A stretch of DNA of 33,321 nt, taken from Bacteroidaceae bacterium (GTDB lineage Bacteria; Bacteroidota; Bacteroidia; Bacteroidales; Bacteroidaceae). Shown here in pieces: positions 5,797-28,792 of this stretch. Under the pieces are notes generated by a model. It was not told the DNA's origin. It saw only the letters and a program-made list of their open reading frames with translations, and made no database searches. The stretch's first letter is position 1. Every line of letters begins with the position of its first letter. The DNA is taken from positions 1 to 33,321 of the forward strand of contig JAFNXM010000031.1 of NCBI GenBank assembly GCA_017383485.1, given 5' to 3'. The position numbers and the translations under genes are program-made.

Positions 5797-8616
5797 ATGT
5801 ACACTATGCACAATATTATACACAAAACGCTCTGCCTTGGACTTTTGCTGTGTTGCGCTCTCACCGCTCTGGGACAAAGTGACAGTAGCGCCCTCAATTA
5901 TTTGTTGCAACGTCCTCCCGTAGCCAAACACTACGACGACAAAAAGTTTGGCGACCACGTTTTCGTTGAAATCGGTATGGGAGCCAATTCTACAGCCAAA
6001 GGCGCCTGCCCCTATCTCGAAGTGCCAGGGATGCAAGCCGGCGGAGCGATTGGCGATTGGGTAACCCCCTTGCACGGATGGAGGATTGGCGTGAATGGAG
6101 GTACCAGAGTGTTGGGACGAAAGACCACAAAAACGCTCGGCGTAAGCGCAGACTATTTGCTAAATATCACTGCGCTCAGCCAGCGTCAATATAATATTCC
6201 ACGCACTTGGGAATTTATCGCGACAGCAGGCGTGGGATATTCACTGGCACACTGGTACACGGATACAAGATACGCCTTGCACACCAAACTCGGTCTGCGC
6301 GCTCAAGTCAACATACACGACTACACTTATATCTACTTGGAACCCCAACTGGGTTTGGTCTCAAATGATTTATACAACGTTTCCTCGTGGCGAGGTTATC
6401 GCATAGCGGGAAAAGTAAATGCCGGTTTAGGTTATAGGTTAGTCAAGGACACACGACGCCAAGACACCTTTGCAGGTAATTCTCATTTCCTCGACAATAC
6501 CTTTGCTCAAATTTCCGGAGGACCTGCTTTCCTGTTTACTTCATCTCCCAAGAACTGGGGTAGAACTCTCGGCGGACACATTCAGGGACACCTCGGTAAA
6601 TGGTGGGACCCTTATTCTGCTACGCGAATAGGTCTGGGCGTAGGTTTGCACCGTCGCGACGATAAAGCCAAAAACAAAAGTTTCAGTGCGTCATTGGGCT
6701 ACATGCTTAATATGCACAACGTCTTTGGCGGATATAAACCTGACAGAAAATACTGGGTGAATGGTGTGATTGATGTTACAGGAAATCTCTCCGCATCAAA
6801 CTATGGCAAACACTATACGGCGGGAATTGGAGCAGGTCTGCAGGGACATTTCAAAATCAGCAAGAACAATACTTTTTTCCTCGAACCTCGCGTGGATTTA
6901 ATGCACGGAGATTATATGCAGGGATATACCACTGTGCGCAATTGGGACTTGATTCCGGCGCTCCATGCTGGTTTTAATTTCATGGAGCAGGGGGATATCA
7001 AGACATTGCGAGCACGCAACCAAGATTTCAAGTCGCCTCATGCCTACGACCACCTGTTTGTCGAAGCAGGACTCGGCGCAGCGATGCCTATCACAGGGCA
7101 CACCGTGTCTCACATGGGATACCACCTTCGCCCGGTGGCTCATCTCGGTGTGGGCAAATGGTTTCATCCTACATCGGGGGTAAGACTCTGGAGCGAAGCT
7201 ACCCAATACATCAACACCGACACAAAGCGCTACAAGGCCATTGCCTTGGGTGCAGATTATTTGTGGCACATCACCAACACAATGATGGGCTACGAGCCTG
7301 GCCACCGCTTTGAAATGATTGCATCTGCCGGCATCAACACGGCAGTACGCCAATATCGTCGTCACGCCTTCTTTGGCGGAAACTTAGGACTCCGCGCACA
7401 GTGGAATGCTAATCAAATGTGGGGATTTTATATAGAACCCCAGGCAAGAATCTATGGCAACAATTTTCTGGAAAGAAGTCAGTTCTCGGCATTCGAAGTA
7501 GATGTCGTCGGACACCTCAGTGCTGGTGTGCAGGCCAACCTACGCCATTATGATGCTCAGCAAAGCAGACAAAATTATCAGCAATACGATAGACATGCCT
7601 TTGTCTCGGCTGCTGGTGGCGTGGAAACGAATGGCCTCGGTCTGAGAGCGCGTAGTCAATATGGTCCGTTGGGCCGTTTGAGCGTGGGTAATTGGTATTC
7701 GCCTATATCAGCATGGCGTGTCAATATCAGCGGATTTGAGAAGGAGAACAACAATCGTCGCTACGCACGCATCATGGCTGGTGCGGACTATATGCTGGAT
7801 TTGTCTACGATGGGTATGGGATACAATCCCGACCGCTATGTCACTTTGCGCGGTATCGCCGGCGTGGATTTTGGCGCAGACCTGGAATGTCGCGGCAGAG
7901 GGTATTTCTTGACAGAACTCCACGGCGGTGCGCAATTGGCAGTGAGAGCGGGTAAAGGATGCGAAATCTACGTCGAACCACAAATCGGTTACGAACTCTC
8001 CGGCAAGAACTACCGCGGTCGCATGCAGCACATCATTCCACGTGCATACGCTGGTGTCAATTGGAAACTTCACACCGCAGAAGGCAAGCACCGCAAAGAG
8101 GCTGCGCCCGAACGCAATCAGTTCGTCAGCCTCAATGTTGGTACGGGCTTTCATACAGGTACGCTCAATGCCAGCATGCCTTTTGGCCGCAAGCTGAATA
8201 TAGATGCGTCGGTGGCTTATGGTCGTTGGTATAATGCCGTATCGGGTTGGAGCGCGGGTATAACTAATACCACCATACTCACTCCTCGTCGCGACAACGC
8301 TAATATTACGTCACTGCACGGCGACTATTTGTTCAACATCCTCACTATCGCTGGCGGCAAGGCGCAATTGAATTCTCGCGCCATGCTCAATGGCTATGTC
8401 GGTGCTTCGCTTAACATTGCGGCTCGACCTGATCGTGAGACTCGCATAGCACCTGGTCTGCGTGCGGGTTTGCAAATTGGCGGCAACGTGGGAAAGAATT
8501 GGTCGATCTATGCTGAACCTCACGCCAATATCACGACTAAAAATATCTGGGTAGGATCTACTCACCCCGCCGATGGACAAGTGGGGCTGATGGTTGGTAC
8601 AAAGTATAGATTCTAA
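5797..8616 (+). CDS. Five-module tandem beta-barrel-like outer-membrane protein
   Basis: 939 residues from the ATG at 5797. That start gives a clean signal peptide (about 1-27, ending ALTALGQ), whereas an ATG at 5740 would lie inside the previous gene. The body is five repeats of about 180 residues. Each has a GxWxxP-type motif (near residues 85, 266, 452, 630, 808: GDWVTP, GKWWDP, GKWFHP, GNWYSP, GRWYNA). Each also has a YxLxxI-type strand (DYLLNI, GYMLNM, DYLWHI, DYMLDL, DYLFNI), and a YxEP-type strand near the module end (near 181, 362, 546, 726, 906: YLEPQ, FLEPR, YIEPQ, YVEPQ, YAEPH). Strands alternate and end in aromatics; the protein ends TKYRF, a typical outer-membrane C-terminus with Phe. 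Each module is the size of an 8-stranded barrel. Last gene of the operon. I do not know a named family; function unknown. Confidence 0.8.
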   Translation: MYTMHNIIHKTLCLGLLLCCALTALGQSDSSALNYLLQRPPVAKHYDDKKFGDHVFVEIGMGANSTAKGACPYLEVPGMQAGGAIGDWVTPLHGWRIGVNGGTRVLGRKTTKTLGVSADYLLNITALSQRQYNIPRTWEFIATAGVGYSLAHWYTDTRYALHTKLGLRAQVNIHDYTYIYLEPQLGLVSNDLYNVSSWRGYRIAGKVNAGLGYRLVKDTRRQDTFAGNSHFLDNTFAQISGGPAFLFTSSPKNWGRTLGGHIQGHLGKWWDPYSATRIGLGVGLHRRDDKAKNKSFSASLGYMLNMHNVFGGYKPDRKYWVNGVIDVTGNLSASNYGKHYTAGIGAGLQGHFKISKNNTFFLEPRVDLMHGDYMQGYTTVRNWDLIPALHAGFNFMEQGDIKTLRARNQDFKSPHAYDHLFVEAGLGAAMPITGHTVSHMGYHLRPVAHLGVGKWFHPTSGVRLWSEATQYINTDTKRYKAIALGADYLWHITNTMMGYEPGHRFEMIASAGINTAVRQYRRHAFFGGNLGLRAQWNANQMWGFYIEPQARIYGNNFLERSQFSAFEVDVVGHLSAGVQANLRHYDAQQSRQNYQQYDRHAFVSAAGGVETNGLGLRARSQYGPLGRLSVGNWYSPISAWRVNISGFEKENNNRRYARIMAGADYMLDLSTMGMGYNPDRYVTLRGIAGVDFGADLECRGRGYFLTELHGGAQLAVRAGKGCEIYVEPQIGYELSGKNYRGRMQHIIPRAYAGVNWKLHTAEGKHRKEAAPERNQFVSLNVGTGFHTGTLNASMPFGRKLNIDASVAYGRWYNAVSGWSAGITNTTILTPRRDNANITSLHGDYLFNILTIAGGKAQLNSRAMLNGYVGASLNIAARPDRETRIAPGLRAGLQIGGNVGKNWSIYAEPHANITTKNIWVGSTHPADGQVGLMVGTKYRF

Positions 8617-18994: not shown

Positions 18995-21613
18995 TTACTC
19001 TCCAAACACCTTTTGGTAGTCTGTTTCGAGTGAGCGGTAAGCCTTGTTGAGCGACTCGATGGCTTGTTGTAGCGCATTCTGATCTTCTTTGTACCACTTG
19101 GCAGATGGATACCAATGCACGTCGTTGCGTTTCGGCGCCACCTTGAGTTTTGCACCCTGGAAGAGGTCTCCTGGCAATCCATTGTCGGTGGCTGTCATCA
19201 TGAAGCCTTTCTCTTTCTTCGCCAAACGCTTGTCATCAGAATTCAACCAACCCCATTCAGCCGAGAAGGTCTGCATTGCGCCGCAGGTGAATTCGCCTGT
19301 TTCTGCATTGTAGTCGAGCATTTCCAAGCGGTAGCGACGTGGCAAAATTTGGAAGTCGGTGTGATTATTAAGCGCCAGGAGCGCCGTGAAATACAAGCCC
19401 ATCATTCCGTTACCCTCGGGATGAACTTGCAAGTTGCCTATTGCATAAGCACCACCCTCAAGGACCATCCAGCGGCGATTAGTTTGCTGATCGAACTGAT
19501 AACCGCAAACTTCGAGCGGAGCAGTGAAGATGTGCGCGGTAAATTCAGGCATTTCCAATAGTTTGTCGGGGTCTACCATCGCCGTGATGAAACCGTAAGT
19601 CTTTTCGCCGTATGGTGAAGAAATGTTGGGCTCCTCGCTAATCTCGGCGTAGATCTCTGTATCCATCGACCAGTCTTCGTTCTGAATAAACTTGTGTCGT
19701 GTACCCTGCAGAGCGGTGGTGTGCTGCGGCGTTTCGGTAGTATCCTTTTCCAAGAAATGAACGGTTAAGGTCATATCTGTCGTTACAGCAAAGGTCTCAC
19801 CAATTTTAGGAACTTCATAGCCTATGGCATCGCTTGTCACACGAGATACAGCCCAATTCTTGTTGGCTTTTGCAGTGAGTGTAGCCATATCGCCATATTC
19901 GAATACTTTGGCAGGTGAGATGCTGGCACTTCCGCCCTTGGCAGGTTCACATTTCACTGTCACATTGTATTTTTGCTTTTGGCGTATCTTTGGCCCGACT
20001 GGTCCATCTTCTGGTGGGACAGGTTTGGGCATTCGCGGATCATTAAATCCCGCTGAATCTCTTGGCTCAGGTTCTGGATCTTCGGGCCAATCTCCCCAAT
20101 CCTTTGTATACTCTTCGGTCGAGAAGAGCCATTCCAACTCAGCTGTGGTGTTAATGATACCTTGATAGCGTTTGTTGTTCATCTGTATATTTGTCATCAC
20201 TGCATAGCCATCAGCCGTAAAGTTTCTGAACCCTGAAATTCGGTCGTACCCTTCGCCATCCCAAACAGAGATAAGCACATCGCCCTTGTTGTTGCGTATT
20301 GAGGCGTCGTTCATATCGCTGTATACCACGGTGCCAAGTGGCGAGAACTTCATTCTGTCGAGATTGTAGGCAACGAAATCATCAAAGGAGAAATGACGAA
20401 CGATTTCGCAATTGTTGTTGATAAGTTTCACACCATTGTTGTCGCCAGAATTGTCAACTTCAACAAAAGCATAGCCGTCGTAAAAAGGCATACCATTGTT
20501 GAATTCTGCCAATTTCTTGCCTGTGATATCGTAGTATTCCAGGTTGGCGCTGTTGGAGCGTTGGATATAGAATTTCCCATTCACTACGTCTGAATAATAG
20601 TCGTACTTTCCAGGTGCAAACACTACTTTACCCGTCTTGTCAATCAGTTGTGGCTCGCCCAATGTCTTAACCACCCAAGCATAACCTTCACTAAAGTTTG
20701 TCGCCTTCATATATGTGGCAGGAATCACCACTTTGCCGTTGGCGTCCATATATCCCCAGGCATACAGTGTGCGAAACTCCTGGCTCCATTCCTTGTATTC
20801 ACGAAAGGCGCGCAGCCCATCTTGCAACGGACGCATAGCATCGTCAGCGTCGCCGTTCAATCGGAGATTGGGAAAGGCCTTCTCGCCTCGCACATTGATA
20901 TAAAAATATTGGTCCTTGTAGTTCACCGTTTGCTTCACGATAGCCAGACCATCGCTGAAGTGTGTAATTTCCTTGTACGTCGGATCCAGTTCCTTCACGC
21001 TGCCGTCCAAATAGAGCAGGTGCCAGCGCTTTTTACCATCAGCAGCAGGTTTGCTGCTCACCATCGGACACACGCCGCTATTGAAATAGGGGAAAAAGTT
21101 ATACGACGACTCTGGGTGCTCCCACTCGTCGGCATAAAGTCGCTTGCCCGTCACACGCCAGAACTCATACCTATAATTCTTTTTCACGGAAAAGACGCCT
21201 TCATGCACATCGCCCACTGTATTGTCATAGAGGTCGGGCAATCGCAAATACTTCGTATTGGCTGAGATGAAGGGGGTGGGGTAGGTTGACTCCACGGTCT
21301 TCCACTTGCTTCGGTCGGGTGCAGTCGATGCCGCAGCAGTCGATGCCGTTGCCGTAGCAGGCGCCGCAGTTGAAGTGGTGGGTGCCGTGGTCGAAGTTTC
21401 AGTCTGTTTCTTCTGCGATTTAGGGGTCAGAGTAGGCAGTTCGCCATTCTTCATCTTGTCCAGTCCTTTATTTACCTTTTCCAGGCCCTTGTTCACCTTC
21501 TCCAACCCCTGTCCGAGTTTCTTCAGGAATTGTGCTTCGCTGGTCACAGGTACCGCAAAAAGCAACAAAGCGAGCCATAGTGGCAATGCAGATAGGATAC
21601 GTTTTGTTTTCAT
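18995..21613 (-). CDS. Exported WG-repeat protein with an InlB-type repeat
   Basis: 872 residues. Signal peptide about 1-28 (VPVTSEAQ). The early mature region has a short amphipathic repeat (GLEKVNKGLEKVNKGLDKMK), then a Ser/Thr/Ala low-complexity linker (about 70-100). Residues about 105-500 contain WG repeats, clearest in WGYMDANGKVVIPATYMKAT followed by FSEGYAWV. An acidic Pro-rich linker (about 508-545) leads to a beta domain (about 547-620) with VTVKCEPAKGGSASISP and MTLTVHF, like the InlB B-repeat/Listeria-Bacteroides repeat. The C-terminal 250 residues form a predicted beta-rich domain I do not recognise, then a helical tail. WG repeats are beta hairpins seen in many secreted proteins, with no fixed function. 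It has its own -7 box and lies downstream of two other WG genes. Confidence 0.82.
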   Translation of the reverse strand: MKTKRILSALPLWLALLLFAVPVTSEAQFLKKLGQGLEKVNKGLEKVNKGLDKMKNGELPTLTPKSQKKQTETSTTAPTTSTAAPATATASTAAASTAPDRSKWKTVESTYPTPFISANTKYLRLPDLYDNTVGDVHEGVFSVKKNYRYEFWRVTGKRLYADEWEHPESSYNFFPYFNSGVCPMVSSKPAADGKKRWHLLYLDGSVKELDPTYKEITHFSDGLAIVKQTVNYKDQYFYINVRGEKAFPNLRLNGDADDAMRPLQDGLRAFREYKEWSQEFRTLYAWGYMDANGKVVIPATYMKATNFSEGYAWVVKTLGEPQLIDKTGKVVFAPGKYDYYSDVVNGKFYIQRSNSANLEYYDITGKKLAEFNNGMPFYDGYAFVEVDNSGDNNGVKLINNNCEIVRHFSFDDFVAYNLDRMKFSPLGTVVYSDMNDASIRNNKGDVLISVWDGEGYDRISGFRNFTADGYAVMTNIQMNNKRYQGIINTTAELEWLFSTEEYTKDWGDWPEDPEPEPRDSAGFNDPRMPKPVPPEDGPVGPKIRQKQKYNVTVKCEPAKGGSASISPAKVFEYGDMATLTAKANKNWAVSRVTSDAIGYEVPKIGETFAVTTDMTLTVHFLEKDTTETPQHTTALQGTRHKFIQNEDWSMDTEIYAEISEEPNISSPYGEKTYGFITAMVDPDKLLEMPEFTAHIFTAPLEVCGYQFDQQTNRRWMVLEGGAYAIGNLQVHPEGNGMMGLYFTALLALNNHTDFQILPRRYRLEMLDYNAETGEFTCGAMQTFSAEWGWLNSDDKRLAKKEKGFMMTATDNGLPGDLFQGAKLKVAPKRNDVHWYPSAKWYKEDQNALQQAIESLNKAYRSLETDYQKVFGE

Positions 21614-21650
21614 AGTTGATATATTTAGAGGTGAAAGACTTTCTATTTTG

Positions 21651-21658
21651 CAAATATA
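21651..21658 (-). promoter_or_regulatory. Minus-strand -7 box for the 18995-21613 gene
   Basis: CAAATATA reads TATATTTG on the minus strand, giving a leader of about 30 nt. There is no clear TTTG at -33; that region is instead occupied by the inverted repeat at 21675-21699. Confidence 0.45.
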
Positions 21659-21674
21659 CGCATAAGCGAGCGAG

Positions 21675-21699
21675 AATTATGAAGTTCACTTCAATAATT
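21675..21699. repeat. Operator-like inverted repeat
   Basis: AATTATGAAGT (21675-21685) and ACTTCAATAATT (21688-21699) are inverted with one bulged base. GCGAGCG flanks it as a direct repeat at 21666-21672 and 21706-21712. It overlaps the expected -33 position of the promoter at 21651. Confidence 0.55.
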
Positions 21700-21782
21700 T
21701 TCACAGCGAGCGGAAGTATATTGGAGATATTTCTCAAATATAGATATTTTTTTCAAATAGAACACCTAATATGTCGTACACC

Positions 21783-24398
21783 TTATTTCAGCAGCGCTTC
21801 CACCTTCAGTTCTGTCTGACTGATGGGGATATTTCCACCGAGTTGTGCAGCACGGTTTCTGTAGCTTCGCATCATTTTTAGGCAACTGTCCTTCAGATAG
21901 GAGCGAGCTCTCGAGCGGCGTTGTTGTTCGTGTGTCCTGGTCATCTGACTGATGCCGGGCACTTTCAGTTTGGCATCAGCTTCGATATATTCTTTCATTT
22001 CTCGCTCAGCTCGTTGCACCCAATCGTTGTACAACTTTTTAGCGTGTCTCAATTCGTTGGCATTGATATTGCCGACTTGTTGATTGTAGTGCGCATTGTA
22101 ATTGCGGTTGGTGCTTACCTGGGGTTGACGGTACTGAGGGTTGTATCGTTGTTGTACAGCATTATTTATGCCTTGTGCCATGGTGGCCGCTGCAGCAGCT
22201 ACGTTTGCCCAAGCCTGTAGTTTCTGTTGGCGGCGCTCCTCGGCAGCACGTTGTTGAGCGGCATATTGGCGCTGGCGTTCATACTCTTCAAGCTGTCGGC
22301 GTTCCTCAGCCAATTGGCGTTCCCTCTCTCTTTCCAACTCTCTTTGCTCTCTTTCCCAGCGTTCCTTCTCAACCTTTTGTGCTTGCAGACCTTTTAGTTT
22401 TTCGATCAGCAGATCTATCTGCCCTTCAGCGTCGCCCAACTTACCCTTCACTGCAGTGTATTGCTTAATGGCTGTATAGTATTCGCCCTTCTTCACATTC
22501 CATCCTGCCAGTGCTAGCTCGTAGTGCGTTTGGATCATATTGTTTTTCAAGATGAAGGCCAGCGTCTTTATTTCATCCCTCAACCTCCAGTCGTCGCCAT
22601 ATTTCAAGGTCGTTGACAGAATATTGTGGTCCGTCACTTCCTTCCCATTCGAATTGATCTTCAGGTATTGGATGAAGTTGGTCATTTTTTGTGGCTTTAC
22701 ATTAAAATATGGACCTGACGAATTCGCGTCAAGGATATGGTACCAATCCTTGAAAGTCACTGCCACGGCACTATCTGTCAATACCACTTGGTCGAACATG
22801 GCGTTGAAGAAATAGTCGTTGCTGACCAATCCCTTTTTCGTGCCACGTGTGATGAGCAGGAAGTTTTTGAAGGCAGAATTTACGTCGGGTTTTACCTCAC
22901 CCAGCGTTTTCACTGTGGTGTAGTTGAGTGCTGTGGATGCCTTGGTCACTGTGTTGTATATGCCGTATGCATCCTTGTATTTCAGGATCTGGTATTTGCC
23001 TACTTTTTTCACCACTTTCGACATTTTTACCAAATCACTTACATCCTTGAACTGTACTACTGACGCACCATCGTGTGTGATAAAGGCGTGGCGAGCCACT
23101 CCATTCTTGTCCGTCACCGTAAAGACTTCGCTCAGTTGGTCAGGCAGTTCGATGGCTTTGTATTCTGCGGGCAGAATCATTTGGTCCGTCTTGCTGTTGT
23201 ACAATCCGACGGCGCCTTCTTCGTTTTCCATCAACCAATAGGTGTGCTTCTTGTCGGGCATTACGTCAAATGGATATTTAGGTAGCAATCCACCACGACA
23301 ATTCACCTGAATGCTATCGTCCAATAGGCGGAAGAACATTTTCTCGTCGTCTGCCGAAATGTAATAGATGTCGCCCAAGCCACTCAGCGCAAAGTCGAAA
23401 CCTCTGTCTTCACCTCTGCGCAACTTGTGTGCAAAAATTTCACGGTAATTGTTGTCCAAGATACAACGCATGCCATCTCGCTGCATGATGATGTGGCTTG
23501 CACCAGTGTTGGGGTTTATGTAGTCAACTTGGGTCAAGTATTTCTTCTTTCCAGCAGATTTTCCGCTATGTTGTCTTATAGTGAAAGAGGTAGAATCATA
23601 TTTTGTGGGTAATACAAATTTCTCTCCGTCAAATATCCCATATTTGCCATTCTTTCCAAGAACCTTCATACCAGACTCGTATTTCTTGGTGACCCATTTG
23701 GGAGTTGTGGCTTTTAGGTCTAATTTAGAGATAGAATCGATCTTCATTTCTGTATATTCACAGAGTAGAATACGGTCGAATTGTGTTTTCGCAGCGTTCC
23801 AGCGCACCTTGCCAATCTTGCCATCTATTTCAACAGTGATACCTGGTTCTTTTACTTTATAGTTGCCGCTATAACCATCTATTTTATCAAATTTAAAATT
23901 ATCGTATTCCCCATAAAGTTGTCTGACTATATGGTGGCATTTGTTGTGATATCTCTCCCCGTTTTGCCTTACATGATAAAGGTGCTCTTTGCCATTAGTC
24001 AGTTTGCCCCAAATAAAACAGTCGTTTTTCTTATTGAAATCGCAGAAACCAAAAGCATAATGCAAACTATATTCTTGATATAAACAAGGTATAATCACTT
24101 GTCCCTTTTGATTTATATATCCACAGCCTTCAGAGGTACTTACCTCAATAAGCGCCATGTCGGAAAATTCAATTTCCTTTGGATCCTTTTTATCCCAGTA
24201 TTTGTATGAACAGCTGTAGTCAGCATCAAAGATAAAATCCGTCACCTGCTGCCATTTTCCTTTATTATCCGGGCGATAGAGCAACGCCATCTTGTCACCC
24301 TTGCGTTTCCACTTGTTATAATAATACTTTTTCGCCTCAGCATCTGCTACCATAAATAGCAAGAGGCCTACCAATGTTAAGATTTTCCAGTGTTTCAT
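21783..24398 (-). CDS. Exported WG-repeat protein with coiled coil
   Basis: 871 residues. Signal peptide about 1-22 (MVADAEAK). WG-type repeats run through about 90-480: GCGYINQKGQVIIPCLYQEY, KYGIFDGEKFVLPTKYDS, VGLYNSKTDQMILPAEYKAI, YGIYNTVTKASTALNY. Around 655-740 is a highly charged Glu/Arg/Gln coiled coil (EKERWEREQRELERERERQ), then an Ala-rich segment, an Asn/Gln/Tyr-rich linker and a helical C-terminal domain (about 800-871). It is a diverged paralogue of the next gene upstream, sharing order and length but lacking the zinc finger. The 34 bases before and including the start nearly match those of that paralogue. Cell location is probably periplasm or surface; function unknown. Confidence 0.8.
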   Translation of the reverse strand: MKHWKILTLVGLLLFMVADAEAKKYYYNKWKRKGDKMALLYRPDNKGKWQQVTDFIFDADYSCSYKYWDKKDPKEIEFSDMALIEVSTSEGCGYINQKGQVIIPCLYQEYSLHYAFGFCDFNKKNDCFIWGKLTNGKEHLYHVRQNGERYHNKCHHIVRQLYGEYDNFKFDKIDGYSGNYKVKEPGITVEIDGKIGKVRWNAAKTQFDRILLCEYTEMKIDSISKLDLKATTPKWVTKKYESGMKVLGKNGKYGIFDGEKFVLPTKYDSTSFTIRQHSGKSAGKKKYLTQVDYINPNTGASHIIMQRDGMRCILDNNYREIFAHKLRRGEDRGFDFALSGLGDIYYISADDEKMFFRLLDDSIQVNCRGGLLPKYPFDVMPDKKHTYWLMENEEGAVGLYNSKTDQMILPAEYKAIELPDQLSEVFTVTDKNGVARHAFITHDGASVVQFKDVSDLVKMSKVVKKVGKYQILKYKDAYGIYNTVTKASTALNYTTVKTLGEVKPDVNSAFKNFLLITRGTKKGLVSNDYFFNAMFDQVVLTDSAVAVTFKDWYHILDANSSGPYFNVKPQKMTNFIQYLKINSNGKEVTDHNILSTTLKYGDDWRLRDEIKTLAFILKNNMIQTHYELALAGWNVKKGEYYTAIKQYTAVKGKLGDAEGQIDLLIEKLKGLQAQKVEKERWEREQRELERERERQLAEERRQLEEYERQRQYAAQQRAAEERRQQKLQAWANVAAAAATMAQGINNAVQQRYNPQYRQPQVSTNRNYNAHYNQQVGNINANELRHAKKLYNDWVQRAEREMKEYIEADAKLKVPGISQMTRTHEQQRRSRARSYLKDSCLKMMRSYRNRAAQLGGNIPISQTELKVEALLK

Positions 24399-24428
24399 GA
24401 CGATTATATTTTAAGAGTGAATAATGTT
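24394..24428 (-). repeat. Duplicated translation-start leader, copy 1
   Basis: 35 bases spanning the start codon of the 21783-24398 gene match positions 27025-27059 at 34 of 35 positions (G/A difference at 24419). The shared part contains TCTTAAAATATAATCGTC just before ATG on the minus strand. Confidence 0.9.
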
Positions 24429-24461
24429 GTACTGATTAATAAGTCTATAGATTAATGCTCA

Positions 24462-27029
24462 TTATTTCTTCATTTTACCTGTGCCATGACACTTGCTGCA
24501 TTTGCCAGTACCCTTGCAATGATAGCATTTTGCCGTGCCTTTGCAATAGGTACAAACGCGTGTGCCAAAGGATGTGGTGACCAGTCCGTCGATGCAATGT
24601 TGGCATTTGCCTGTGCCACGACAATGGCTCTTGAACAAGGTCATATTTGTATTGACACGTGTACATGTGCCACTTCCGCCACAATGGTCGCACCTCACAT
24701 AATTGGGTTCTGATTGGGCTGTGGTTTGAGTGTAAGTTCTCGCAGAAGTCGAGTGGTTGTTGTAGTGTTGCTTTTTCACTCTGCTTGCATTGACCGTAGC
24801 ATTGACATGGGCAACGCCATTGCTTACGGCAGCAAGTGCGTCTATCCAGGCCTGCTGGCGTTGTTGGCGTGCTTGTTCGGCAGCGATGCGTTGTTGGCGC
24901 AATTGTTCCTGACGTTGGCGTTCTTCCTCTTGTCGTTGGCGTTCTTCTTCCTCCTGCTGCGCTTGAATCTGCTGCCGCTTGTCAGAATAAACTGCATAGA
25001 GGTTTTTATAGGTGGATTGTAGGCTTTTTGAATATTCACTCATTTGCTCATAGTCCAAGTTGATAAAAGAGAAGAGGCACAGACTGCGCAATTGGTCGAA
25101 TTCCTCAATAAAAGACACGCCCCTTTCCGCATCTGCCCACATTTTGTTTTCCAGATTTTGTATGCGAGCATTGATGGTGGCTTCCAGCAGGGTGCGATTG
25201 CCCGTGATGATAGCAGTTTTGTATATTGATTCGAAGTAATTATTAAACTGTTCTTCAATAACATTGGCTAAATCGTGTTCCCAATCGTATTTGACACTTA
25301 TCACGCTGTCCTTTACGCTAATGGTCATATCATCAGAATGATATTGTCCGTTGTCCCGTAAACTGATACTACTACGATAAACACTAATATAGGGGAAATA
25401 GGGACTTGCCACAACTGCATCATGGGAAATCAGGCCTTTAAAATCCTTGTCATAATAAGTTACAAAAAACTTTCCTTTGAGATCGTCACTCACCTCTTTC
25501 TTTTGATCAAACTGTTCTATGGGTTTGATACTATCATAAATACAAGGTACAATCAACCCACTCTCGCTATTTGTGATGCCATACCCACCGTCCTTTTTTA
25601 CCAGGGAAAGGGTGCTGTCGATAGGCAAAAATTCAGCACCAGCATAAGCGTCCCTTTTGTCTTTGAGCAACACTACCGAGTCTCGAGCGTGGGTGATATA
25701 GGCATAACTACAGTCTGTAGAATCCCTTTCCACCAAGAAGAAACCATCTTGCAGATCAGTCTTCATGATTTTGGTATAGACAGGAGGCAAGAGTTCCTTT
25801 TTCAACTTGGCATTGTACAACCCCACCAATTTTTCGTCCTTAACATTCTTCACGATGAATATGTCTGAAGTAATGCTGGTGATTGGTAAAAAACATTCAA
25901 TGTCTTCACCATAGTGTGGGGGAATTGAGAATCCATTATCTATCACATAGCCCCAACCCTTGCCATTGTGGTATTGATAATAGATGTTTCTGTCGCATTG
26001 TGCAATGTGTTCGCTTTTGGCATCGTCCACAGGAATGATATTGCCGGTTTTCGTGTCATACCACACTTTCTTACCATCTTTCAGCAGGTAGAACAGGCGA
26101 TTTTGGATAGAAATCTTTTGAAACGCCTTGTTACTTCGATAGATGCTTTCGTCGAATATCAATCCATTTCTGAGGATATAGGTATTTTCACCCTTTTTCT
26201 GCAAGTCATGCGATTGGATGCTGAATGAAGCTTTGTCAAACAAGGGAGGGATGGACACTTCTCCAAATGCTATTGCGCCAAATTTGCCATCTTTTTCTAC
26301 AATGGTGTATGAGTCATAATGTGAATGCCTAAATCCAATATATTTTAAACTCACATTGGTGAGATTCCAATGATAGTCGCTGATATATTCTTGTGGTTTT
26401 TGAATAGTCAAATGATTATCAACACCACCACCTAATCTATGTGTATAGATACTGTCAAATTGAGGTTCTGTTATATTTGTATCATATCCTTCATTATAGT
26501 AAACCGAGCCCCATTTCCCATTATCGCCCTTTACGTGAAAATACGAAATCGTTGAGATATAGCCGCCTACACGATGGAATTCTTTATAATTGTACTCAGA
26601 ATTATTTTGTATATTTCCATAGTCGTCTTTCGCCGCGATATATTTACAAGGTACAACCTCGTGCCCCAATAAATTGATGATTCCAAACCTTCCATTACAT
26701 TCAACGAGCAAACTCAATCTATTAAGATATTCTGAGGAACTATTAATAAAATAAACCTTCTCCTTTGCTACCAACTTACACACGCTGTATTTATAGTCAG
26801 TCAGCACGATATCCTCCTTGCCTTCCTCTCTCAACGCCAAGGCGTATTTCCCTTTTTTCTTCTTCCACCAAAACGACATTTTATTGTCTAATCGAGGATA
26901 TTTTCCATAGCGTTTCTCTATTTCCGCTTGTGCCGCCTCTTGAATAGGAGACAAGGGTTGCTTTTGCTGCGCCATGATAGGGGATAGCAATAACAAATGG
27001 ATGATGATGATTGATAACAGACGCTTCAT
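24462..27029 (-). CDS. Exported WG-repeat protein with coiled coil and DnaJ-type zinc finger
   Basis: 855 residues. Signal peptide about 1-21 (LLLLSPIMAQ). WG-type repeats between about 110 and 510: FGIINLLGHEVVPCKYIAAK, FGAIAFGEVSIPPLFDKA, VGLYNAKLKKELLPPVYTKI, YGITNSESGLIVPCIYDSI. A Glu/Gln/Arg coiled coil (EEEERQRQEEERQRQEQLR) lies at about 680-730. The last ~80 residues are Cys-rich with CxxCxGxG-like units: CDHCGGSG, HCRGTGKCQHC, CTYCKGTAKCYHC, CKGTGKCSKCHGTG. These match the zinc-binding centre of DnaJ, but no J domain is present. It is unusual to find this on an exported protein. It lies 44 bases after the upstream BACON-type gene and 63 before its paralogue, so an operon is likely. 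Confidence 0.83.
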   Translation of the reverse strand: MKRLLSIIIIHLLLLSPIMAQQKQPLSPIQEAAQAEIEKRYGKYPRLDNKMSFWWKKKKGKYALALREEGKEDIVLTDYKYSVCKLVAKEKVYFINSSSEYLNRLSLLVECNGRFGIINLLGHEVVPCKYIAAKDDYGNIQNNSEYNYKEFHRVGGYISTISYFHVKGDNGKWGSVYYNEGYDTNITEPQFDSIYTHRLGGGVDNHLTIQKPQEYISDYHWNLTNVSLKYIGFRHSHYDSYTIVEKDGKFGAIAFGEVSIPPLFDKASFSIQSHDLQKKGENTYILRNGLIFDESIYRSNKAFQKISIQNRLFYLLKDGKKVWYDTKTGNIIPVDDAKSEHIAQCDRNIYYQYHNGKGWGYVIDNGFSIPPHYGEDIECFLPITSITSDIFIVKNVKDEKLVGLYNAKLKKELLPPVYTKIMKTDLQDGFFLVERDSTDCSYAYITHARDSVVLLKDKRDAYAGAEFLPIDSTLSLVKKDGGYGITNSESGLIVPCIYDSIKPIEQFDQKKEVSDDLKGKFFVTYYDKDFKGLISHDAVVASPYFPYISVYRSSISLRDNGQYHSDDMTISVKDSVISVKYDWEHDLANVIEEQFNNYFESIYKTAIITGNRTLLEATINARIQNLENKMWADAERGVSFIEEFDQLRSLCLFSFINLDYEQMSEYSKSLQSTYKNLYAVYSDKRQQIQAQQEEEERQRQEEERQRQEQLRQQRIAAEQARQQRQQAWIDALAAVSNGVAHVNATVNASRVKKQHYNNHSTSARTYTQTTAQSEPNYVRCDHCGGSGTCTRVNTNMTLFKSHCRGTGKCQHCIDGLVTTSFGTRVCTYCKGTAKCYHCKGTGKCSKCHGTGKMKK

Positions 27030-27073: not shown

Positions 27074-28792
27074 TTAATATATAGTAAATTCAAGGATTAG
27101 CTTGTCGATACAAGTCTTCCAATATTTATAGACGCTGTCGTAGACGGAGTGTGCTTCGGTCTCCATCGTTATCTTGTTGTAACCCTTTTTGGCATTATAG
27201 AGTTTGCCGGCATAGGCTGCCTTGTAGGCGCCAGTATTCTTGTTCCTATAGACGGTGATGTCGGCAGATCTTGGATTGGCAGGCGTAGTTTTTCCTGTAT
27301 TGGGACAATAGTAATAGGGCAAATACCCTGGTGCTGTACCTTTCACCCATTCGGGACCAAGACTGCTTTCCTCGCTACTTCCACCGCCCGTGCCACCTCC
27401 GCCACCTGAACCGCTTGGGCCTTGTTGGTTGACGGTGACTCTGTGTGAATAGGTCTCGCCTTTGACGTCGGACACCGTGATATAGATATAACCCGTGCGT
27501 GCTGCTCCACTGTTTGCGCTATTGGCCCATAAGAGGTGCATACGTGTGTAATATTTGCTCTCAGCAGGTAGGACTGGCGCCAGTCGTGCCGTCCACAACC
27601 ACGAATCGGAGTAAGTGACGCTGATTTTGCTGACATCAAAATCTGGTTCATATACATAAAAGACATAGGAGCTTGTATAAGTCAATCCTGCCGCAGGCAC
27701 ATAACTAGAGCCTTTGGAACTGATATTGTAAGTTTCTTCAAGAAAGTCTACCCGCTCCAAAGTCGGCGTTTCTAATACTACCAATGTCTGATATTCTGTG
27801 CCATCAGAGGTGCTGCCGTAGACGAAAGATGTGCCCTTTGGAAATATCCACTTACCCTCATCACCGCTCCACGAATCCCTATTGTAATACCAAAGATTAT
27901 AAATATTGCAATTGATATTCGTACTGCCGGGCACAAGGAACGCCCCTTTGTCATTATAATATATAGCGCTGTCGTCGGGGCGCAAATAATAGTTCAAGCT
28001 CAGATGCTTATGCTGCGCCCAGCACTCCTTGTACTGGAAACCATAGGCTTCGGGTTCTGCAAGGACAAAGTCGGGGACGCGCTGTTCATCCTTTAAGTCG
28101 ATCAGTGGGCGGTCTGTTGATAGAATATAAGTCTTACCATTGCTATTAAACAGACAGCCCTCGCTCAATCTCCACGAATAGCCGCCGGTATCGAAAGTCA
28201 CGTTCTTCTGGTACTCGCATTTACGTATCACCGACTCCCCCTTGATGGCGAGCAGTTTCCTTTCCTTGTGGATATAAGCCACGTCCTGCACAATCCATTG
28301 ATCGTCCTGCCACTCCCATTTGGAGATCTCCTCGAAGTCATACCATTTCGGATGCGCAAAGAGGTCGGCTGGGATGGGATTTCCCTGCCACAAATCATAA
28401 TCAGACTGCATTGTGTAGGCCGTCCAGTTCGAACCGTTTGATAACCATATATTGGTGTCGTCATAGCGCGTCACCGTGTAGGTCTCCGTTTTGTTGATGT
28501 TGTCAAATTGCAGTGTCAATCTGCTCAGATTGCTTGCATAAGTCCAATTGAAGGTCTGCGTCTCAAGCACACGTCCATTGCCATAGCATCTATGCTTTTT
28601 GCCAGAGCCATTAGGCGTACCTATGGTCATACTGCTGAACTCATACACATACATTTCGCCACTGACTAGCGGTTCGGTGCACCACTCGCTGCGTGTCAGG
28701 TCTGATGGAAATGTGTCAACCTCTTCCTTTTCACAAGCGCACAATAATATACCCATGAAAAGCGTCGTGATAACATAATACATTTGTTTCAT
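27074..28792 (-). CDS. Lipoprotein with BACON-like domain and Gly-rich linker
   Basis: 572 residues. MKQMYYVITTLFMGILLCAC gives a lipoprotein signal (Cys about 20) followed by EKEEVD, an acidic +2 region compatible with surface export in Bacteroidetes. The first ~330 residues are beta-rich and contain DUF-like segments I do not recognise (LTLQFDNINKTETYTVTRYD). Residues about 344-457 resemble a BACON/Ig-like domain (TGYIYITVSDVKGETYSHRV, then TVNQQG). A Gly/Ser linker follows (GPSGSGGGGGTGGGSSEESS, about 458-477). The last 95 residues are a separate Tyr/Lys-rich domain, unknown. It heads the run into the two coiled-coil WG genes. It has a real Shine-Dalgarno sequence, unlike its neighbours. 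Confidence 0.75.
   Translation of the reverse strand: MKQMYYVITTLFMGILLCACEKEEVDTFPSDLTRSEWCTEPLVSGEMYVYEFSSMTIGTPNGSGKKHRCYGNGRVLETQTFNWTYASNLSRLTLQFDNINKTETYTVTRYDDTNIWLSNGSNWTAYTMQSDYDLWQGNPIPADLFAHPKWYDFEEISKWEWQDDQWIVQDVAYIHKERKLLAIKGESVIRKCEYQKNVTFDTGGYSWRLSEGCLFNSNGKTYILSTDRPLIDLKDEQRVPDFVLAEPEAYGFQYKECWAQHKHLSLNYYLRPDDSAIYYNDKGAFLVPGSTNINCNIYNLWYYNRDSWSGDEGKWIFPKGTSFVYGSTSDGTEYQTLVVLETPTLERVDFLEETYNISSKGSSYVPAAGLTYTSSYVFYVYEPDFDVSKISVTYSDSWLWTARLAPVLPAESKYYTRMHLLWANSANSGAARTGYIYITVSDVKGETYSHRVTVNQQGPSGSGGGGGTGGGSSEESSLGPEWVKGTAPGYLPYYYCPNTGKTTPANPRSADITVYRNKNTGAYKAAYAGKLYNAKKGYNKITMETEAHSVYDSVYKYWKTCIDKLILEFTIY

Follow-up and report, generated by a model that had tools for sequence, protein, structure and literature searches.

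Five OmpA-type barrel modules on one chain in a three-gene unit of Bacteroidales: evidence for linked closed barrels and a possible fimbrial ancestry

The DNA studied here, called the window below, is a stretch of 33,321 nucleotides forming contig JAFNXM010000031.1 of a Bacteroidaceae bacterium (assembly GCA_017383485.1). One of its genes, the last of a three-gene unit (the trio), encodes a 939-residue protein in which five tandem modules follow a putative signal peptide, and each of these modules is, by homology, an eight-stranded barrel of the OmpA type. That the anatomy is one of closed barrels, linked to each other and belonging to a unit of three genes, is very probable, and the sequence data favour five linked closed barrels over one ring of 40 strands. 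Identity and number of the modules, their strand pattern, the operon and its co-occurrence across loci were all obtained by computation.

No family was assigned to the chain in Pfam and NCBIfam scans, and in named plasmid records it carries the annotation 'hypothetical protein'. The closest relative found, 76% identical, comes from Prevotellaceae bacterium cow7.9 (contig L046). The start of the chain resembles a signal peptide (...TALG/Q), so that the mature protein would begin at Gln27 following the 'Q rule' of Bacteroidetes, and its C-terminus reads ...GTKYRF. A preliminary description of the window, made from the sequence alone, had claimed five tandem barrel-like modules; this is borne out alike by the positions of the motifs, by shuffling of module pairs and by profiles applied across positions. 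The three motifs on which it was based, each said to recur five times, had to be revised. [YF]xEP[QRH] is indeed present in five of five modules (residues 180, 361, 545, 725 and 905), GxWxxP in only four (residues 86, 267, 453 and 631, module 5 having GRWYNA at 809), and YxLxxI is absent as written, the strand motif common to all five modules being [GD]Y[LM]x[NHD][ILM] (residues 119, 301, 487, 664 and 843). The motif spacing between modules is 177–186 residues. Each of the ten module pairs outscores every one of its 200 shuffles (z-scores 7.1–22.8). Profiles specific for positions 1, 2, 3, 4 and 5, built from 23 other five-module proteins, each recovered all five window modules, the weakest with an independent expectation value (i-E) of 1.1e-15.

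The kinship of the module was established with a profile derived exclusively from 14 single OmpA-type barrels, which recognised five near-full-length domains in the window protein with i-E from 2.2e-26 to 5.9e-17. These 14 barrels had been gathered by similarity to the chain family, which favours a match, but hardly one at E ≤6e-17. In a control with 200 shuffled copies of the window protein, the best E was 0.08 for the module profile and 1.4 for the single-barrel profile. Recognition of each repeat nearly in full by a single-barrel profile argues that each module is an OmpA-type barrel. Two earlier statements, namely that the module has the length of an eight-stranded barrel and that the protein is of outer-membrane type, are upheld. 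Soluble beta-repeat domains, the outcome which the preliminary description had set beforehand against its own proposal, are rejected since the modules match OmpA-type barrels. The profile of the five modules in turn finds single copies in other Bacteroidales proteins, the frames of which measure 371–433 residues with one exception of 668 (L018). In all six single-module relatives scanned, out of 14, PF00691 lies C-terminal of the barrel, and in two of the six PF13505 is above its cut-off on the barrel part. With E up to 1 allowed, PF13505 is matched by 14 of 99 modules (best 2e-6); module 3, the one window module for which the result was tabulated, gave no match. The PF00691 peptidoglycan-binding domain was not found by Pfam in the window chain, which ends with module 5. 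The resemblance to the OmpA family (PF13505 barrel plus PF00691) lies in the barrel, with homology along almost the entire length of each chain module; the window chain differs by its five barrels, by the missing PF00691 and by its conserved operon, in which DUF3575 and a CarboxypepD/OmpA-like/TPR protein are also encoded.

An alignment of 294 modules displays eight alternating strands per module, connected by three turns of near-constant length (4, 10 and 3 residues; standard deviations 0.1, 0.9 and 0.1) and by four variable loops (median lengths 10, 8, 5 and 11 residues; the longest 32). The mean entropy amounts to 3.6–3.8 bits in the outer loops and 2.4–2.8 bits in the strands. Four variable loops combined with three constant turns is the pattern of a small barrel, from which both ends of the module would be periplasmic.

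Structure and family databases were searched as well. The window chain found nothing useful in a sequence search of the PDB (one match, E 0.4), nor did the module alignment (best 0.009, covering 38 residues of EstA), and the significant PDB matches of one single-module relative (L015) are restricted to its C-terminal OmpA domain. NCBIfam holds no family for the chains of L124 and L118, and Pfam gave scattered weak matches only on 17 whole chains. As the preliminary description had supposed, no single-barrel family of the same full length was matched in Pfam and NCBIfam. A union of DUF3575 and the module in one family was considered and rejected, the profile comparison giving no convincing full-length match; a distant link may nevertheless exist, as the single-barrel profile weakly matches the DUF3575 protein of the window (E 1.6e-5). 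An hhalign comparison of module and single-barrel columns was not counted as evidence, because the two sets had been fitted to one and the same profile.

Two arrangements had been proposed for the five modules, a string of linked barrels or a ring of about 40 strands; the string is better supported and the ring is disfavoured. In the ring, the modules would be arcs of a single barrel enclosing a very large pore or secretion channel. Single-chain barrels are known with up to 36 strands, and the strands of the present protein alternate along the whole chain, as a ring would have it. Nevertheless, every module is homologous to single barrels, and a family with 2–8 modules would demand rings of 16–64 strands. 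The inter-module linkers also speak against the ring. They measure 7–42 residues (median 14) among 204 well-bounded cases, 20 of 224 being omitted as a module edge was not covered, and in most cases they exceed the periplasmic turns in length; the 40 that were printed are hydrophilic. The beta-signal G-x-x-aromatic-x-hydrophobic was found in 42 of 48 last modules and in 126 of 190 inner modules, 190 being the number scored after 25 of 215 without the last alignment column were left aside. Covariation analysis gave antiparallel ladders at all seven neighbouring strand pairs, with β1–β8 (1.00) as the top antiparallel pair among non-neighbours. The β1–β8 covariation inside the module has a z-score of 2.6 (0 of 200 permutations; raised at registers 168–172), and the corresponding β8–β1 covariation between neighbouring modules was not seen at the tested register (z −0.8). 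The latter result is unfavourable to a ring, as is the covariation of β3 with β7 (Arg47–Glu133, z 7.7). The fusion of the module to another barrel family also counts against the ring: in L129 (5604-6881, − strand), the third gene of the trio consists of one OmpA-type module joined to a DUF3575 barrel (PF12099, E 2.8e-30), and after this hybrid gene come a DUF5119 gene and two genes of fimbrillin-like type. Separate barrels are likewise favoured by a stand-alone one-module protein of 206 residues encoded in L115 (8633-9250, − strand), upstream of a trio whose chain counts three modules.

Several observations weigh against closure within each module. The full beta-signal is missing from 64 of the 190 inner modules. 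At 1.08, the parallel β1–β8 ladder stands above its antiparallel counterpart (1.00), and two pairs of strands that are true neighbours reach just 1.04–1.05. The tested register, 170, had been chosen on pooled data for this very family; within the module, the best register is 168. In concatenated covariation, closure within the module is ahead solely at a fixed register (0.91 and 1.15 vs 0.43); at another register the between-module ladder rises to 0.88, and this free-register β8–β1 value, near that within the module, would suit the ring. Barrel closure inside the modules is thus supported, not proven, by the sequence data, and the giant ring appears very improbable. Table 1 collects the features of the chain and its two partner genes.

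Table 1. Coordinates of the barrel chain, its parts and the two partner genes in the window (position 1 is the first letter of the window).
Feature	Position	Strand	Basis
Trio gene 1: DUF3575 barrel (putative), 183 residues	3115..3666	+	PF12099 E 9.9e-46; present at relatives' loci
Trio gene 2: CarboxypepD_reg-like, OmpA-like block, TPR, 688 residues	3723..5789	+	PF13715 E 1.3e-11
Trio gene 3: five-barrel OmpA-type chain	5797..8616	+	Translation, 939 residues; five near-full domains by single-barrel profile
Signal peptide	5797..5874	+	From sequence; cleavage site putative
N-terminal segment with box SALNYLLQ, directly ahead of barrel 1	5875..5952	+	Box pattern
Barrel module 1	5944..6453	+	Profile domains; edges with two-residue padding
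Barrel module 2	6484..6999	+	Profile domains
Barrel module 3	7039..7554	+	Profile domains
Barrel module 4	7582..8082	+	Profile domains
Barrel module 5, C-terminal beta-signal-like ...GTKYRF	8104..8613	+	Translation and profile domains

Modules were counted in homologues, as the preliminary description had suggested, and 2–8 per chain were found among 56 different multi-module proteins: two modules in one protein, three in six, four in nine, five in 25, six in nine, seven in three and eight in three. For some of them the count is a minimum, as the chains of L003, L023, L065 and L127 are cut by the ends of contigs or fetched stretches and that of L079 stops near a contig end. A tree was calculated for 109 modules, 95 from 19 chosen proteins plus the 14 single ones. 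It groups the modules largely by position across records from Prevotellaceae, Bacteroides, Barnesiella and Muribaculaceae, with starred clades for the first (100/95), fourth (99/81) and last modules (100/98) and unstarred ones for the second (94/84) and third modules (91/83), several rows being long or unplaced. The clade of last modules joins the single barrels (93/86, not starred). From this grouping by position across records, the differentiation of the barrels within a chain is probably ancient. The additional modules resemble duplicates of inner ones. In the eight-module chain of L031 (8210-12808, + strand), modules 4–7 fall together in the position-4 clade and modules 4 and 5 share 88.6% DNA identity; position 4 of this chain is, from its sequence, a recent tandem amplification. 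The Barnesiella chains look like the outcome of a duplication at position 2, and in genome G010 the pair of modules 3 and 4 was apparently duplicated.

A chain match in a frame longer than 700 residues was obtained in 18 of 58 genus genomes, and a chain match at 1e-30 in 20 of 393 order genomes. A scan of the phylum at 1e-20, which scores few candidates per genome and may thus miss some, gave matches in six of 395 sampled genomes, all within the order of the window; three of the six are frames of just 374–393 residues with one module (L100–L102). A four-module trio was also seen in a record titled Clostridium sp. (L063), a metagenome-assembled genome that is possibly a mislabelled bin, and L118 (5539-9654, − strand) carries a divergent seven-module chain of 1372 residues.

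Ahead of the first module, 42 of the 56 chains contain the pattern [NSD][AG][LMF]x[YH]x[LM][QE], which was composed after inspecting the segments and which is absent from all 224 inner linkers and all 14 single OmpA-type barrels. The N-terminal segment with this box (SALNYLLQ in the window) is presumed to be a periplasmic docking segment.

The two partner genes, which had not figured in the preliminary description, regularly accompany the chain. In the window, the DUF3575 gene is followed after 56 bp by gene 2, and gene 2 after 7 bp by the chain. The DUF3575 protein would itself be a barrel, judging from Autotransporter and OMP_b-brl matches below the cut-off; in the gene 2 protein, PF13715 is above the cut-off, and PF00691 (E 0.09) and TPR_1 (E 0.002) are both below. 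A first locus survey of 36 rows with nine repeats, without the short contig L010 and without L003 (same contig as L047), showed that, of 27 distinct loci, 26 have both partner genes next to the chain, the exception, L047, starting inside gene 2. The same was observed in 19 of the 20 larger loci L103–L122, of which L112 is a repeat of L067, and in L132, a longer stretch of the L099 locus. The order is gene 2, chain, DUF3575 in L056 and L057. From the side of gene 2, matches with E ≤1e-100 that span most of the gene were found in 13 genus genomes, every one of which has the chain; among 19 order genomes selected by the same criterion, 18 have the chain (1e-30) and the 19th, G178, has the DUF3575 hybrid. 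The unit is not without gaps, and these count against a strict association. Five of the 18 chain-bearing genus genomes (G009, G010, G011, G071 and G021) and two of the 20 chain-bearing order genomes (G350 and G445) gave no full gene 2 match, the match being weaker or partial, none listed, or broken by a contig end (the chain of G021 is on a short contig). In L118, which belongs to G350, the upstream neighbour of 1129 residues in the place of gene 2 was not recognised as a homologue. Large secreted-looking genes were seen directly after the chain in L032 (1964-4690, − strand, 909 residues), L033 (6993-9257, − strand, 755 residues) and L121 (10022-12595, + strand, 858 residues); those of L032 and L033 have no Pfam match at 0.01.

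As to function, the neighbours of some trios provide a lead. Mfa_like_1 fimbrillins adjoin the trios of L119, L129 and L132 above the cut-off and that of L116 below it, and annotated fimbrillins are located beside the five-module trio of Bacteroides finegoldii (L124); most of the fimbrillin-adjacent trios have few modules. The ancestral job of the trio was, on this ground, most likely the anchoring or assembling of type V (fimbrillin) surface filaments. No fimbrillin match was obtained among the scanned neighbours of L117 or among the 17 window proteins scanned, so that the window would be linked to fimbriae by descent only. Its operon does hold DUF3575 and the OmpA-like/TPR protein (OmpA and TPR below the Pfam cut-off). 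Related gene pairs occur in fimbria-type loci of Bacteroidales. L130 has a DUF3575 gene and then a 479-residue gene 2 homologue with DUF3868 (TPR below the cut-off), and L131 has DUF3575, a 485-residue gene 2 homologue and then a Fimbrillin_C gene. No barrel chain was found in L130 and L131, whereas the gene 2 protein of the window starts with a CarboxypepD_reg-like domain and the chain follows. In B. thetaiotaomicron, BT4227 to BT4236 include an Mfa1 fimbrillin, DUF3868 and DUF3575 (PMC10434189).

From these data we infer the location of the chain, its lack of pores, its docking and its function as follows. The chain would be exported via its signal peptide and folded by the ordinary outer-membrane assembly machinery. 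In the outer membrane it would form five barrels of eight strands each, separate, closed and without pores, and connected in the periplasm by linkers that mostly measure 10–19 residues; both chain ends and all linkers would lie in the periplasm, and just the short loops (medians 5–11 residues) would be exposed outside. Its partners in an envelope platform may be the DUF3575 barrel and the CarboxypepD/OmpA-like/TPR protein, the latter presumably periplasmic; such a platform would be a raft of membrane barrels on a periplasmic scaffold, perhaps docked by the conserved N-terminal box of the ALxYxLQ type. The function as a fimbria platform is proposed tentatively. The wider proposal is made with still more reserve: an unnamed envelope machine of Bacteroidales in which a closed-barrel chain (2–8 barrels, tunable, with distinct ends and duplicable inner barrels), the DUF3575 barrel and the periplasmic OmpA-like/TPR scaffold make up an outer-membrane platform for anchoring or assembling surface filaments of fimbrillin or other type. 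Most trios, that of the window included, are without a recognised fimbrillin neighbour (only some neighbours were scanned), which tells against a fimbria platform. So does the gene 2 protein itself: its alignment has a conserved [AS]SP[ED]G block, and 19 of 19 rows have Ser at the position that Asp occupies in the usual peptidoglycan motif of OmpA. The replacement of this Asp makes peptidoglycan binding by the gene 2 protein doubtful.

Two other functions deserve consideration. A purely mechanical tether, with the trio connecting the outer membrane to the cell wall in the manner of OmpA and no filament involved, would account for the scarcity of recognised fimbrillins at most loci. It is in keeping with the relation of the modules to OmpA-type barrels and of the last-module clade to the single ones, and also with the OmpA-like block and TPR of the gene 2 protein, which resemble parts of PG1058. 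Nevertheless, the barrel chain is devoid of PF00691, the gene 2 protein lacks the key Asp and fimbrillins do adjoin some trios; hence we consider a plain tether somewhat unlikely. Alternatively, the outer loops of the barrels, placed side by side, could act as a multivalent surface receptor or adhesin that binds its ligand avidly, the length of the array tuning the avidity. That the outer loops are the most variable parts of the module by the entropies given above, that the module number varies and that position 4 is amplified in L031 would fit such a receptor. The loops are short, however, the conservation resides in strands, turns and the N-terminal box, and the chain is regularly paired with two partner genes, all of which renders this function unlikely.

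Among known systems, PG1058/PorE of the type IX secretion system resembles gene 2 only, through its TPR, carboxypeptidase-regulatory-like and OmpA-like domains; it has its own domain order and a beta-propeller and belongs to another system (PMC5053529). The remark in the preliminary description that no family with this layout had been described went too far, since outer-membrane proteins with multiple barrels have already been published as a class (Solan et al. 2021 PNAS, cited here via passages of PMC11494523 and PMC8592465). In the same passages, GfcD is given as having two barrels, of 12 and 13 strands. The present chains share with that class the presence of several barrel domains on one polypeptide, judged here by sequence; they differ from it, to the extent that these excerpts cover it, in their 2–8 homologous eight-stranded barrels, largely position-specific lineages, variable number and conserved operon. 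Among the matches listed in searches of the open-licence literature on multi-barrel proteins and DUF3575 (titles and abstract openings), the chain family is undescribed.

The family bears on a general question, namely the benefit to a cell of linking several outer-membrane barrels in a single polypeptide. It offers a natural series of 2–8 homologous barrels, along with the 1+1 hybrid with DUF3575, beside the same partner genes, so that the number of barrels could be studied by comparison or by alteration while the rest of the system stays similar. In addition, it points to a component of the outer membrane next to DUF3575 in gut-bacterial loci of the fimbria type, and the way in which several barrels on a single chain are handled by the assembly machinery could be tested with it.

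Elsewhere in the window, three adjacent large genes on the − strand (18995-27029; 872, 871 and 855 residues) match WG repeats (PF14903, the second below the cut-off) and are possibly a paralogue array. Next to them, 27074-28792 (− strand) encodes a 572-residue protein with a sub-threshold BACON match alone.

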